Shown here piece by piece: positions 17,498-46,790 of a DNA stretch of 64,000 nt (position 1 is its first letter; each line of letters opens with the position of its first letter). Below the pieces are notes generated by a model. It saw only the letters and a program-made list of their open reading frames with translations, had not been told where the DNA came from and did no database searches. The DNA is from an uncultured Bacteroidota bacterium (GTDB taxonomy: Bacteria > Bacteroidota > Bacteroidia > Bacteroidales > F082): NCBI GenBank assembly GCA_913009685.1, contig CAJVXP010000005.1:20174-84173 (forward strand), read 5' to 3'. Made by a program: the position numbers and the translations under genes.

Positions 17498-17556
17498 GGT
17501 TGAATGACAACTGCTTGACCATTGTTTGACAGCGAAGCGAATGACCATCGCCTGAC
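17498..17556 (-). repeat. 11-base tandem array, locus 4
   Basis: Five consecutive units, each ending GAC on the plus strand: four of 11 bases and one of 15 bases (AGCGAAGCGAATGAC, 17531-17545). A 23-base stretch, 17523-17545, is the exact reverse complement of 39805-39827, including the odd 15-base unit. It lies upstream of the SpoU methylase gene and directly downstream of a terminator. Confidence 0.85.
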
Positions 17557-17563
17557 CATTCAC

Positions 17564-17600
17564 AAAAAAAAGCCCTTTCCGTAAAAGGAAAAGACTTTTT
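17564..17600 (-). terminator. Terminator of the rpsF-rpsR-rplI operon
   Basis: On the minus strand, AAAAGTCTTTTCC pairs with GGAAAGGGCTTTT (17587-17599 with 17568-17580, G-U tolerated) and runs into a T-tract of eight. It lies about 160 bases after the rplI stop, with a dispersed repeat in between. Confidence 0.65.
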
Positions 17601-17620
17601 ATGTTAAGTCAGAAAAGACA

Positions 17621-17730
17621 AAATCCAAACCACAAAACCCAAATAAATTCTAATCATCAATATCAAAATACCAAACAATTGGGTTTCTGTTTGAAAATTG
17701 CGTTTTAGAATTTGAAATTTATTTGTGATT
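17621..17730 (-). repeat. Dispersed AT-rich repeat, copy A
   Basis: About 110 bases that, read on the minus strand, align along their length with 61755-61865 on the plus strand. Shared exact blocks include CAATTTTCAAAC, CCAATTGTTTG, TATTTTGATATTGAT and GAATTTATTTGGGTTTTG. It is not coding on either strand. It sits between rplI and its terminator, so it would be transcribed as part of the 3' end of that mRNA. Confidence 0.75.
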
Positions 17731-17758
17731 TACCTTTTGTAATTTGGTATTTCAAAAT

Positions 17759-18208
17759 TTACTCTGCTTTTACATCCAATGTCACTTCAACGACAATGTC
17801 TTTGTGTAATTTGACGGTAGCTTTGTAAGCGCCCACCTCTTTGATAGCTTCGCCGCTGATTTCAATTTTCTTACGGTCAACTTCCAGATTTTTCTGGCCT
17901 TTAATGGCATCTGCAATCATAATGTTGTTTACCGAACCGAAAATTTTACCTTTGGTACTGGCTTTCACACCAATGGTCAGTTGGGCACCTTCGAGCACTT
18001 TGACAATTTCTTCCGCTTCTTTTCTGATTTTTTCTTCTTTGTAGGCCTGCTGTTTTTTCACTTCAGCCAGCACTTTCCTGGCGGAAGAGGTGGCTATAGC
18101 AGCCATTCCTTTAGGAATCAAATAATTGCGGGCGTAGCCATCCTTTACGGTAACGAGGTCGTTTTTATAACCCAAACCGGTAATATCTTGTTTTAAAATA
18201 ATATCCAT
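17759..18208 (-). CDS. rplI: 50S ribosomal protein L9
   Basis: L9 bridges the L1 stalk region and guards translation fidelity. The 149 residues begin MDIILKQDITGLGYKNDLVTVKDGYARNYL, in parts the classic N-terminal domain, with a long connecting helix (about 40-75) and C-terminal domain. Last gene of the S6-S18-L9 operon, 15 bases after rpsR. Confidence 0.98.
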   Translation of the reverse strand: MDIILKQDITGLGYKNDLVTVKDGYARNYLIPKGMAAIATSSARKVLAEVKKQQAYKEEKIRKEAEEIVKVLEGAQLTIGVKASTKGKIFGSVNNIMIADAIKGQKNLEVDRKKIEISGEAIKEVGAYKATVKLHKDIVVEVTLDVKAE

Positions 18209-18223
18209 TGTTTTTCCTCCCTT

Positions 18224-18490
18224 TTATTTTAATAAGTCAGCAACATAAGGCATCAGAGCAAGGTGGCGGGCTCTTTTAACGGCTTTGGCCACTTTTCTCT
18301 GGTATTTGGTCGAAGTACCCGTGATACGGCGGGGTAAGATTTTGCCTTGTTCGTTAACAAAACGGAGCAAAAAGTCAGCATCTTTATAATCGATGTATTT
18401 GATGCGGTTTTTCTTGAACCGGCAGTATTTCTTCTTAGTGGTATCTACTGCAATCGGTGTTAAATATCTTATATCTGAATTCTGTGCCAT
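18224..18490 (-). CDS. rpsR: 30S ribosomal protein S18
   Basis: S18 pairs with S6 on the 30S platform. The 88 residues contain KKKYCRFKKNRIKYIDYKD (about 14-32) and the RRITGTSTKYQRKVAKAVKR core (about 55-74). Middle gene of the operon. Confidence 0.98.
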   Translation of the reverse strand: MAQNSDIRYLTPIAVDTTKKKYCRFKKNRIKYIDYKDADFLLRFVNEQGKILPRRITGTSTKYQRKVAKAVKRARHLALMPYVADLLK

Positions 18491-18523
18491 GATTTTATTT
18501 TTTAAAGTTTAAATGAGTATGTA

Positions 18524-18892
18524 TTAAGCTTTCTTTTCAGCAGTTTTCGTTTTTTTGCTTTCTGCAAATTTCTTCCGCCGTTTCTCGCTGTAAGCAATGG
18601 CATGCTTGTCGAGTTTAACGGTTAAAAAGCGTAATACCTTTTCATCGCGTTTGTACTGAACTTCCAGCTTTTCAATGAATTGGCCATCTACCCTGTATTC
18701 AAACAGATTATAAAATCCTGTCGATTTTTTCTGAATGGGATACGCCAGTTTGCGCATGCCCCAGTTCTCACGATTTACAATCTCGCCACCATTGTCGGTG
18801 ATGAGTTTTTCGTAAGTCTTTACCGTCTCCTTTACCTGATCTTCAGATAAAACGGGAGTTAAAATGAAAACGGTTTCATACTGATTTACCAT
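18524..18892 (-). CDS. rpsF: 30S ribosomal protein S6
   Basis: S6 heterodimerises with S18. The 122 residues start MVNQYETVFILTPVLSEDQV and show GGEIVNRENWGMRKLAYPIQ (about 35-54), with a basic tail KRRKKFAESKKTKTAEKKA usual for this phylum. First gene of the operon; a TACTTTTG box lies 44 bases upstream of the start codon. Confidence 0.98.
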   Translation of the reverse strand: MVNQYETVFILTPVLSEDQVKETVKTYEKLITDNGGEIVNRENWGMRKLAYPIQKKSTGFYNLFEYRVDGQFIEKLEVQYKRDEKVLRFLTVKLDKHAIAYSEKRRKKFAESKKTKTAEKKA

Positions 18893-45087: not shown

Positions 45088-45270
45088 ATGCAACAATTTC
45101 TTACTTCGGACGATTTTCAGGATCAATATAGGTGTAAGACCCGACATACAAAAGAGGCTGACCTGCGCAAACCTTCACCGGGAGTTATCCGATACCTTCT
45201 GGCTTATGCCGCAGCCGTACATGTTTTTAAAACAAAAAGTATGGGAAATATAAATATCCTGATGAATTAA
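45088..45270 (+). CDS. Small conserved-looking protein (60 aa)
   Basis: The protein starts MQQFLTSDDFQDQYRCKTRH and ends YAAAVHVFKTKSMGNINILMN, with a KPSPGVIRYLL segment just before. This layout (basic middle, Pro-Ser, an Ala-rich helix, ending in ILMN) resembles short Bacteroidota-specific proteins of unknown function that share a terminal helix and Leu-X-Asn end. It is followed by a perfect 17-base-pair terminator, which supports it as a real transcription unit. It has no known function. Confidence 0.6.
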   Translation: MQQFLTSDDFQDQYRCKTRHTKEADLRKPSPGVIRYLLAYAAAVHVFKTKSMGNINILMN

Positions 45271-45295
45271 AAAGCTCTGTTTGGTTTTAAAAGGC

Positions 45296-45340
45296 GGAGT
45301 CCGGAAAAATCCAAAGGATTTTTCCGGACTCCGGTATTTT
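45296..45340. terminator. Strong bidirectional terminator
   Basis: A perfect 17-base-pair stem GGAGTCCGGAAAAATCC (45296-45312) with a 3-base loop and the arm to 45332; followed by TATTTTAT on the plus strand and by CCTTTTAAAA on the minus strand. Serves the small gene at 45088 and the CYTH gene. Confidence 0.8.
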
Positions 45341-45348
45341 ATGCAATG

Positions 45349-45834
45349 TTAAAGATTAAACTCTTTCCAGTTACAGTAAGGGTTTTTTGAAAGTTCGGCA
45401 CTGTAAAAGGCTGGATTCCCGGTAACTTCCTGACCCAGCCATTCCGGTTTCTCAAATGTCGTATCTGCGCTGGGAAGTTCTATCTCAGCTAATAAAAGCT
45501 CCTGATTATCTCCGTGAAATTCATCCACTTCAAATTCCAGGCCATCTCCTGCAGGCACAATGTGGCGTGTTTTTATCACCAATCCCGATTCGCGAAGTTC
45601 CATGAGGTCTTTTGCATCTTTCAGCGGGATTTCCTGTTCCCACTCAAAACGCATGATGCCGGAAATTCTGGCCGGTCCTTTAATGTTAATGTAACCTTTC
45701 CCGTCCTGAATGCGGATTCTTACGGTACGGTTAGTCTGGGTGGAAAGATAGGCTTGCGTAATTTCCAGATTTTTTATTACGAAAGGTTTAAAGGTGCCTT
45801 TAACCAAAAATTTGAGTTCAATTTCCTGTGCCAT
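45349..45834 (-). CDS. CYTH domain phosphohydrolase
   Basis: 161 residues with the CYTH tunnel-fold signature EIELKFLV (ExExK) at 4-11 and alternating charged strands (RTVRIRIQDGKGYINIKG; FEVDEFHG; LLLAEIELPS). CYTH proteins hydrolyse inorganic triphosphate or thiamine triphosphate, or cyclise ATP. The short bacterial form is most often a triphosphatase; substrate not predictable here. Confidence 0.88.
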   Translation of the reverse strand: MAQEIELKFLVKGTFKPFVIKNLEITQAYLSTQTNRTVRIRIQDGKGYINIKGPARISGIMRFEWEQEIPLKDAKDLMELRESGLVIKTRHIVPAGDGLEFEVDEFHGDNQELLLAEIELPSADTTFEKPEWLGQEVTGNPAFYSAELSKNPYCNWKEFNL

Positions 45835-46008
45835 GTTAAGTTGCTTTTTTAGGTCATTACAAAATTAACGATTTATTCCTTAAGGGAATTTGCCGAGAGT
45901 GTTAAATAAAAATAAAATAAAAGGTCCTGCAATAGTTATCTTTCCCTCTTTCCCGGAAAGAATTGTCCGGTATGAAAGATTTTCTCCATTTTTGTAAAAA
46001 ATTATTTT

Positions 46009-46653
46009 ATGACACGAAAAGAACGCTTCTGTCACATTATCGAATATTTTAAAATTCATCAGCCCTTTGCCGAAACCGAGTTGCATTACCGTGATCCTTA
46101 CCAGTTGCTGGTAGCAGTGATTTTGTCAGCACAATGCACCGACAAAAGAGTTAATGTAATTTCGCAGGAGTTTTTTCGACAATATCCTGATGTGGAAAGC
46201 CTTTCGCGGGCGGAGGTGCCGGATATTTTCGCACTGATCAAAAGCTGTTCTTATCCGAATAACAAAGCCAGACATTTGTCGGGAATGGCCAAAATGCTGC
46301 TGACGGATTTTGGTGGCAAAGTGCCTTCCGATATCGACGAACTGCAAAAAATGCCGGGTGTGGGTAGAAAAACCGCCAATGTCATTGCTTCTGTTGTGTT
46401 TAATAAGCCTGTCATGGCTGTGGATACACATGTTTTCAGGGTCGCTGCCCGGCTGGGGCTCACTGTTGGTGCAAAAACACCGCTGGAAACGGAAAGGCAG
46501 CTGGTGAGATACATTCCCGATGAGCTGATTCCGCTGGCACATCACTGGCTTATTTTACACGGCCGCTATGTCTGCCTTGCCCGTAAACCCAAATGTGACG
46601 AATGTGGATTGAAGCAGTGGTGTGAGTTTTATGAGGAAAACGGAGGAGAGTGA
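46009..46653 (+). CDS. nth: Endonuclease III
   Basis: A DNA glycosylase/AP lyase for oxidised pyrimidines. The 214 residues have the helix-hairpin-helix MPGVGRKTANVIA with catalytic Lys 121, Asp 139 in VDTHVFR and the iron-sulfur ligands CLARKPKCDECGLKQWC near the C-terminus. Full length. Its stop codon is followed at 18 bases by the locus 3 repeat array. Confidence 0.97.
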   Translation: MTRKERFCHIIEYFKIHQPFAETELHYRDPYQLLVAVILSAQCTDKRVNVISQEFFRQYPDVESLSRAEVPDIFALIKSCSYPNNKARHLSGMAKMLLTDFGGKVPSDIDELQKMPGVGRKTANVIASVVFNKPVMAVDTHVFRVAARLGLTVGAKTPLETERQLVRYIPDELIPLAHHWLILHGRYVCLARKPKCDECGLKQWCEFYEENGGE

Positions 46654-46671
46654 GGTGGCCAGAAAACAGTT

Positions 46672-46726
46672 GACAGACAATGGTCAGGCAATGGTCAAAC
46701 AGTTGTCAGACAATAGTCAGGCAATT
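46672..46726 (+). repeat. 11-base tandem array, locus 3
   Basis: Five 11-base units without gaps: GACAGACAATG, GTCAGGCAATG, GTCAAACAGTT, GTCAGACAATA, GTCAGGCAATT. It starts 18 bases after nth. Confidence 0.9.
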
Positions 46727-46790
46727 GTTATTTATTTTTTCACTTTTATCTTTTTACTTTTTATCCGCCGAAGCCTGGCAAAGGAGGATT
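46727..46790 (-). repeat. T-rich run and inverted CCGCC hairpin copy
   Basis: A TTTTTAC/TTTTTAT-type run (46727-46763) leads to CCGCCGAAGCCTGGCAAAGG (from 46765), which is the reverse-oriented copy of the 24-base hairpin at 37810-37833 with one deletion and two changes. Confidence 0.75.

Follow-up and report, generated by a model that had tools for sequence, protein, structure and literature searches.

What are short, head-to-tail repeats with a partly degenerate unit doing in the spacers of a bacterial chromosome, and how do they persist there? The question is raised by a stretch of 64,000 nucleotides from an uncultured Bacteroidota bacterium (Bacteroidales, F082; assembly GCA_913009685.1, contig CAJVXP010000005.1, positions 20,174 to 84,173), referred to here as the window, in which four intergenic spacers hold arrays of an 11-base unit. 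A preliminary description, made from the letters of the window alone, had located these four period-11 arrays correctly, including the one on the minus strand (Table 1), and had proposed that they are a modular family and not local slippage products. We find that arrays of the same build occur beyond the four loci and in other genomes, and that the unit is divided into fixed and free columns. Tentatively, we attribute the persistence of the family to repeated local copying.

A family of arrays in the source genome

The source genome (G000; 2.11 Mb, 87.8% complete) was sampled in 319,248 fetched bases, comprising the window, 14 stretches chosen for a match to the unit pattern and six 20-kb stretches chosen regardless of arrays. 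This sample contains 20 arrays of at least three units in 17 spacers. Such arrays were present in 13 of the 14 pattern-chosen stretches and in none of the six 20-kb stretches, and five first-order Markov resamplings of the same bases contained no array. Across the full assembly, the pattern matched exactly at 10 sites and with up to three mismatches at 57, while the reversed pattern matched nowhere. As the assembly is only 87.8% complete, 17 array spacers is a lower bound. The window arrays are members of a family and chance is excluded; the earlier reservation, that only these four arrays might exist in the genome, does not apply.

The arrays are located in spacers, with end overlaps of at most 16 bp with called open reading frames (ORFs) at loci L152 and L159. 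Mechanical ORFs of 183 and 95 amino acids span the arrays at L156 and L160, neither of which has a Pfam match. The 62 units of G000 represent 35 distinct words, compared with 47 expected from independent columns; columns 5-6 are coupled, as are columns 9-11.

The modular details described beforehand hold to different degrees. The 23 bases at 17523-17545 are indeed the exact complement of 39805-39827, linking two window loci of opposite direction. The description of the arrays as uninterrupted breaks down at the 37741 locus, where a hairpin and a linker separate the first block from the second. The aberrant 15-base unit thought to be common to three loci, GTCATTCGCTTCGCT, is identical at two of them, and the third version (at 37839, GTCAGACGCTTTGCT) differs at 3/15 positions. 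The CCGCC/GGCGG hairpin occurs at two loci in inverted orientation as reported, but its two versions are only near-copies, with 2 mismatches and a one-base gap. In 611 kb of G000, a relaxed 15-mer pattern has 11 copies at 9 places, with GTCA coming next in 10 of the 11.

Fixed and free columns of the unit

The profile initially given, GTCARRCARTN, is better described as GTCA-xx-C-RR-T-N, with xx mostly AA, AG, GA, GG or TT. Columns 1-4, 7 and 10 are fixed, and columns 5, 6, 8, 9 and 11 are free. With Tandem Repeats Finder, arrays with a period of 11, 22 or 33 were found independently of the motif and were phased by it afterwards; this phase fitted 9/10 arrays in G000, 12/12 in the related genome G004 and 25/29 in Synergistaceae, and the 5/51 non-fitting arrays were excluded. 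In G000 and G004, within-array identity was 0.87-1.0 at columns 1-4, 7 and 10; columns 5, 6, 8 and 9 gave 0.49-0.70 and column 11 gave 0.4. In the Synergistaceae arrays, columns 1-7 and 10 reached 0.95-1.0; column 8 stood at 0.45, column 9 at 0.43 and column 11 at 0.25. When columns were permuted within arrays, the observed spread over all columns was reached in 0/5,000 permutations in every set. The detector used in this test constrains columns 1, 4, 7, 8, 9 and 10, a constraint avoided by the Tandem Repeats Finder arrays and by the detector-free columns, and the latter alone revealed unequal conservation with P values of 0.001 or less in every set.

The same division is seen between genomes. 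In eight hand-aligned orthologous unit pairs, taken from three loci and anchored on shared aberrations or array ends (most units were unalignable), differences were found at 2/48 fixed sites versus 12/40 free sites (P 0.001). At four-fold sites, the neighbouring genes show an identity of just 45-63%. The fixed columns thus appear to outlast the four-fold sites of adjacent genes, with the constraint somewhat overstated because decayed units would escape recognition.

A fixed word with free columns is also found in other words, namely CTTTT[AGT][ACT] in the window, TC[TCA]CTT[CT]G in G004, and both AGT[TG][TCG]GG and TAATGTGN in G008. The 38 AGT[TG][TCG]GG units of G008 (L332:2007-2272, period 7) have five invariant columns and one that is nearly free. 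The column test applied to these words treats cells as independent, so its significance is overstated where units were copied as blocks.

Distribution among genomes

Allowing up to one mismatch, the pattern was detected in 5/11 other genomes of the same genus, 3/24 others of the family and 0/24 others of the order, with controls at 0 throughout. In an even phylum sample it was found in 1/395 genomes, G000 itself, and in 0/394 others. A scan of 84,980 species returned 91 stretches with the pattern which, judged by title, include 29 from Bacteroidota, 18 from five metagenome-assembled genomes (MAGs) of Synergistaceae and seven from a single MAG of Omnitrophota. The remaining 37 have a scattered distribution, and many are short GC-rich repeats, which we take to be chance or unrelated matches. 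One array-bearing MAG has the label Draconibacterium orientale, so the family may have a cultured relative among its carriers. In 16 genomes picked for holding loci, all within-genome control counts were zero.

The Synergistaceae arrays have head variants of their own (GGCAAGC, GCTAAGC and GTGAAGC), and the 47 kb of loci selected from one MAG contained 34 period-11 calls. These arrays are therefore unlikely to be stray Bacteroidales contigs, although binning error may affect single MAGs. Three Synergistaceae spacers (L144, L105 and L099) combine head-specific 11-mer sub-arrays with linkers of 9-11 bases and a GGGAATCCAG-type hairpin repeat. Two contigs of one Synechococcales cyanobacterium MAG (L107 and L110) also match the pattern and contain short GTCAAACAATA repeats. 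Viral contigs were considered as carriers and rejected; the two stretches that matched are both GTCAAGCAATC repeats of a different make.

Gain and loss between species

Of the 17 array spacers of G000, seven have an array near the orthologous gene in G002, G003, G004 or G011, which is a lower bound since the comparison covered 30 fetched array loci from these four genomes. Both neighbours are conserved at ligA, the editing gene, the FtsX pair and UbiA, and one neighbour is clear at C2, C24 and C46; at L156 a HAD-type gene separates the array from the second of the genes compared. Some related species carry arrays in the same spacers, with altered unit order and number, and others lack them. 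Neither the 330 nt following nth (11 congeners) nor the 420 nt preceding SpoU (10 congeners) showed an array, and several of these congeners have a different gene in the flank concerned.

The ligA spacer is particularly varied. It is short and repeat-free in G001, G005, G006, G007 and G010, and contains GTCA 11-mers in G000, G002 and G004 (about 18 in G004). In G003 it holds GTCATTC 10/11-mers up to the contig end, and in G008 (L330:7685-7772) a period-8 array of 11 TAATGTG+N units, with all four letters at N and no equal neighbours. No clear array was seen in the spacer of G011. In G005, a single contig, the LigA match lies in pieces with extra C-terminal matches (L262 and L263; G005:C1:1030687-1034029).

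Gene context and DNA structure

The arrays have no direction relative to genes or to replication. Among the 17 spacers, five are in sense with both neighbours, six are antisense, three divergent and three convergent, counting as one neighbour each at L152, L159 and L160 an ORF without a Pfam match. By Pfam the neighbours are unrelated and include ligA, nth, polA, serS, glyA, leuB, corA and FtsX/MacB permeases. A leading-strand polarity, seen in 17/20 arrays with 5-kb flanks, was dropped after it fell to 12/17 spacers with flanks of up to 20 kb (P 0.14); with such flanks G004 gave 8/14. Read along the GTCA strand, pyrimidines are more abundant in the 3' flank than in the 5' flank in 19/20 arrays of G000, often with 7- and 8-mers, compared with 10/15 in G004 and 22/39 in Synergistaceae, so this flank polarity is clear only in G000. 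Several arrays have a GC-rich hairpin or CGCTNCGCT on their 5' side.

A period close to one helical turn had also suggested curved or easily unwound DNA. The modelled curvature is weak: in a wedge model, six arrays gave 33 degrees, compared with 21 (sd 11) for the background and 81 for phased A-tracts, and on average 30% of column-permuted arrays were at least equally curved. Easy unwinding gains no support from base composition, with a GC content of 41% in the arrays versus 43% in the loci.

Features of the window

Table 1. Repeat features of the window (coordinates count from its first base).
Feature	Position	Strand	Context
11-mer array, 5 units including one 15-mer	17498-17556	-	between ribosomal protein L9 and SpoU methylase genes
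15-base unit GTCATTCGCTTCGCT	17531-17545	-	
11-mer array, 6 units	37741-37806	+	antisense to ligA, 11 bp from ligA start codon
GC-rich hairpin CCGCC...GGCGG within mosaic	37810-37833	+	
Second block: 15-mer variant and two units	37839-37875	+	
Period-7 array CTTTT[AGT][ACT]	37882-37975	+	columns 1-5 invariant in 13/13 full units; columns 6-7 free
11-mer array, 6 units including one 15-mer	39794-39863	+	19 bp from start of aminoacyl-tRNA editing-domain gene
15-base unit GTCATTCGCTTCGCT	39805-39819	+	
Perfect period-7 array TTCATTC	39873-39907	+	3' side of the 39794-39863 11-mers
11-mer array, 5 units	46672-46726	+	18 bp past nth stop codon
Pyrimidine-rich degenerate period-7 repeats	46731-46763	+	3' side of the 46672-46726 array
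Inverted near-copy of the 37810 hairpin	46765-46788	-	

The array at 17498 directly follows a terminator-like hairpin and sits in about 200 extra bases (17360-17580) that separate the conserved terminator from the start of SpoU. Both ends of this extra stretch have TTTTTTGT, whereas G002 has a single T-run of this kind there. The possibility that the flank at 17360-17510 derives from the end of a gene located elsewhere was rejected: there are 26 other weak matches in the genome, the best of 25 bases (E 8e-5). This 25-base match adjoins the C35 array, and the next-best, of 21 bases, the C46 array. The 48-residue ORF tail adjoining the 17498 array had no plasmid match. Elsewhere in the window, degenerate 8-mer repeats (ACCYYYNN-like) at 21552-22007 and 22736-22890 flank the ORF at 22028-22705.

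How the arrays may persist and spread

We tentatively favour the explanation that the family persists and spreads by repeated local copying. Intergenic arrays would spread and be maintained through strand slippage and template switching, with the fixed bases acting as a pairing anchor during copying and the free bases being positions that tolerate mispairing. We infer this mechanism, the anchor role and the lack of a dedicated binding factor. Copying in permissive spacers is favoured because the gene context is unrelated, the orientation mixed, the tests of function negative or weak, the words in the ligA spacer varied and a similar fixed and free build present in other words of the genus. Copying between loci does occur: L156 and L160 have 69 bp in common at 93% identity, and two window loci have the 23 exact bases in opposite direction. 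Shared two-unit phrases were more frequent than in shuffles in G000 (3 vs 0.85, P 0.05) and Synergistaceae (6 vs 1.9, P 0.01).

Several observations weigh against copying. Neighbouring units in G000 are less alike than in within-array shuffles (0.342 vs 0.419, P 0.001), as they are in G002, G003 and G011 taken together (P 0.02), in Synergistaceae (P 0.03) and, weakly, in G004 (P 0.08). These counts drop duplicate arrays and the near-duplicate Synergistaceae locus L125, and Omnitrophota gave no array by the detector used. In ordinary microsatellites adjacent units are more alike than distant ones; this was found only in two Draconibacterium arrays, whose neighbours surpass 99% of shuffles in likeness, matching the slippage prediction. 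Recent homogeneous expansions therefore exist elsewhere and are not the rule here; in Cfx3-02, neighbour likeness did not differ from within-array shuffles. Phrase sharing showed no excess in G004 (3 vs 2.9) or in the pooled G002, G003 and G011 (0 vs 0.13), and between loci it is weak overall. Moreover, copying should homogenise all columns equally, whereas the free columns are near random and the fixed ones near perfect. In Synergistaceae, four different heads (GTC in 17 arrays, GGC in 10, GCT in six and GTG in five) are each combined with free columns 8, 9 and 11, a spread reached in 0/5,000 permutations, with column 4 in GCT arrays and column 6 in GTG arrays as further variable positions. 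A4 and T10 stay fixed although their transitions would also pair by wobble, which the anchor idea fails to explain. Unlike neighbours and recurrent free columns are unexplained by copying, and a bound factor explains both better.

It is possible, if doubtful, that the arrays are docking tracks for a candidate DNA-reading protein that would recognise a 7-bp head, GTCAxxC, followed by a 4-bp spacer, RRTN; binding along one face of the DNA had also been suggested in the preliminary description, and the position-specific conservation fits it. Its sites would lie one helical turn apart and head to tail, as for OmpR/PhoB-family regulators on paired sites; selection would keep the fixed bases, and differing free bases between neighbours would guard against loss by slippage. 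The near-invariant columns 1-7 and 10 beside a random column 11 in Synergistaceae, the unlike neighbours and the conservation of fixed sites between orthologous units beside diverged four-fold sites all agree with this, and PhoP sites likewise combine a 7-bp motif and a 4-bp spacer (PMC4832192). A binding protein is harder to reconcile with the lack of orientation, of a common gene class and of persistence across species. No pattern match was found in 6/11 other genomes of the genus, heads differ among sub-arrays, unrelated words in the same genus have the same fixed and free build, and no pho or pst gene was among the neighbours scanned. The broader version, in which chromosome-wide tracks of word and wildcard offer one-turn docking sites to a head-to-tail protein filament, selected in unrelated phyla and with the wildcards acting against slippage, seems unlikely.

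A random column 11 could also arise if a polymerase, perhaps a telomerase-like reverse transcriptase, stuttered on a short word and appended one untemplated base whenever it restarted. The TAATGTGN array, with 11 units, all four letters and no equal neighbours, fits this idea, although alone it is not significant (P 0.09). We consider such an origin improbable, as the RR columns are purine-restricted and not random, and arrays written once and then left untouched would show decay of the fixed columns over these species distances. Telomerase-like reverse transcription was rejected since RVT_1 had no match in the array-rich G000 and G004 and was found in only 2/12 genomes, G005 and G011. Mobilisation by a Y1 (REP-associated) transposase, like that of repetitive extragenic palindromes (REP) and their mosaics (BIME), would account for the mixing of arrays with GC-rich hairpins and for the segment copied between L156 and L160, and Y1_Tnp is present in G000. 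It is, however, present in 12/12 genomes of the genus, including the six without a pattern match, and the units are direct repeats and not palindromes, which makes this route very improbable. The least probable account is that the arrays work at the RNA level, serving as terminators, stabilisers or structured leaders. Short tandemly repeated repetitive (STRR) heptamers have been proposed as transcript stabilisers (PMC2670836), and against dinucleotide shuffles the folding z values in G000, G004 and Synergistaceae were -1.4, -2.8 and -1.5 for the GTCA strand and -0.8, -0.8 and -2.0 for the other. Column-permuted arrays are a fairer control where repeats are in tandem, and against them the mean values for the same sets were +0.19, +0.40 and -0.25 (GTCA strand) and +0.78, +0.84 and -0.48 (other strand); the excess is gone, and folding of RNA or single-stranded DNA was rejected. 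Orientation to genes is mixed, and Rfam had no match at the arrays in the window or at 11/13 other loci (L152 and L157 excluded).

Comparison with known repeat systems

No named element matching the 11-mer was found in repeat-directed searches of the open-licence literature. The pho box (PhoB/PhoP/OmpR) has the head TGTCA, whereas here the base before GTCA is unconserved, C7 and T10 are fixed, and arrays reach up to 26 units. The likeness lies in its 11-bp direct repeats of a 7-bp motif and a 4-bp spacer (PMC4832192). Synergistaceae units fit this layout except for the fixed T10, and in G000 and G004 head positions 5-6 are free. The placement differs as well: pho boxes lie in one orientation upstream of regulated promoters and at phosphate genes, whereas the 17 spacers hold arrays in either orientation, with no phosphate genes among the neighbours scanned.

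The nearest kinds of repeat are STRR, the neisserial intergenic mosaic elements (NIME, dRS3/RS) and REP (PMC2670836, PMC3898611 and PMC12306157). REP/BIME are likewise extragenic and numerous, with hairpins nearby. Their units are palindromic and alternate in orientation within BIMEs (PMC2817692), whereas ours are head-to-tail direct repeats on one strand and the presence of Y1_Tnp does not track them. NIME are modular intergenic mosaics of several repeat types, as the arrays are (PMC3898611). However, dRS3, ATTCCC-N8-GGGAAT, is an inverted repeat as opposed to an 11-bp direct repeat, and it has 0 exact matches in 611,105 bases of G000.

The closest known kind is the cyanobacterial STRR heptamers, which are degenerate. 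Both are short tandem units in intergenic DNA with a function that is not known (for STRR, PMC2670836). The STRR unit is 7 bp rather than 11, although period-7 arrays adjoin some 11-mer arrays, and its hosts are filamentous cyanobacteria as opposed to Bacteroidota, Synergistaceae and Omnitrophota. Here, in addition, the free columns are mapped, and hairpins and 7/8-mers are interspersed with the units. No function is yet known for STRR and similar degenerate intergenic tandem repeats, and unequal column conservation is a signature that can be measured and is not predicted by plain slippage. Together with the natural presence and absence of arrays in one genus, this signature makes the choice between self-copying and a bound factor testable.

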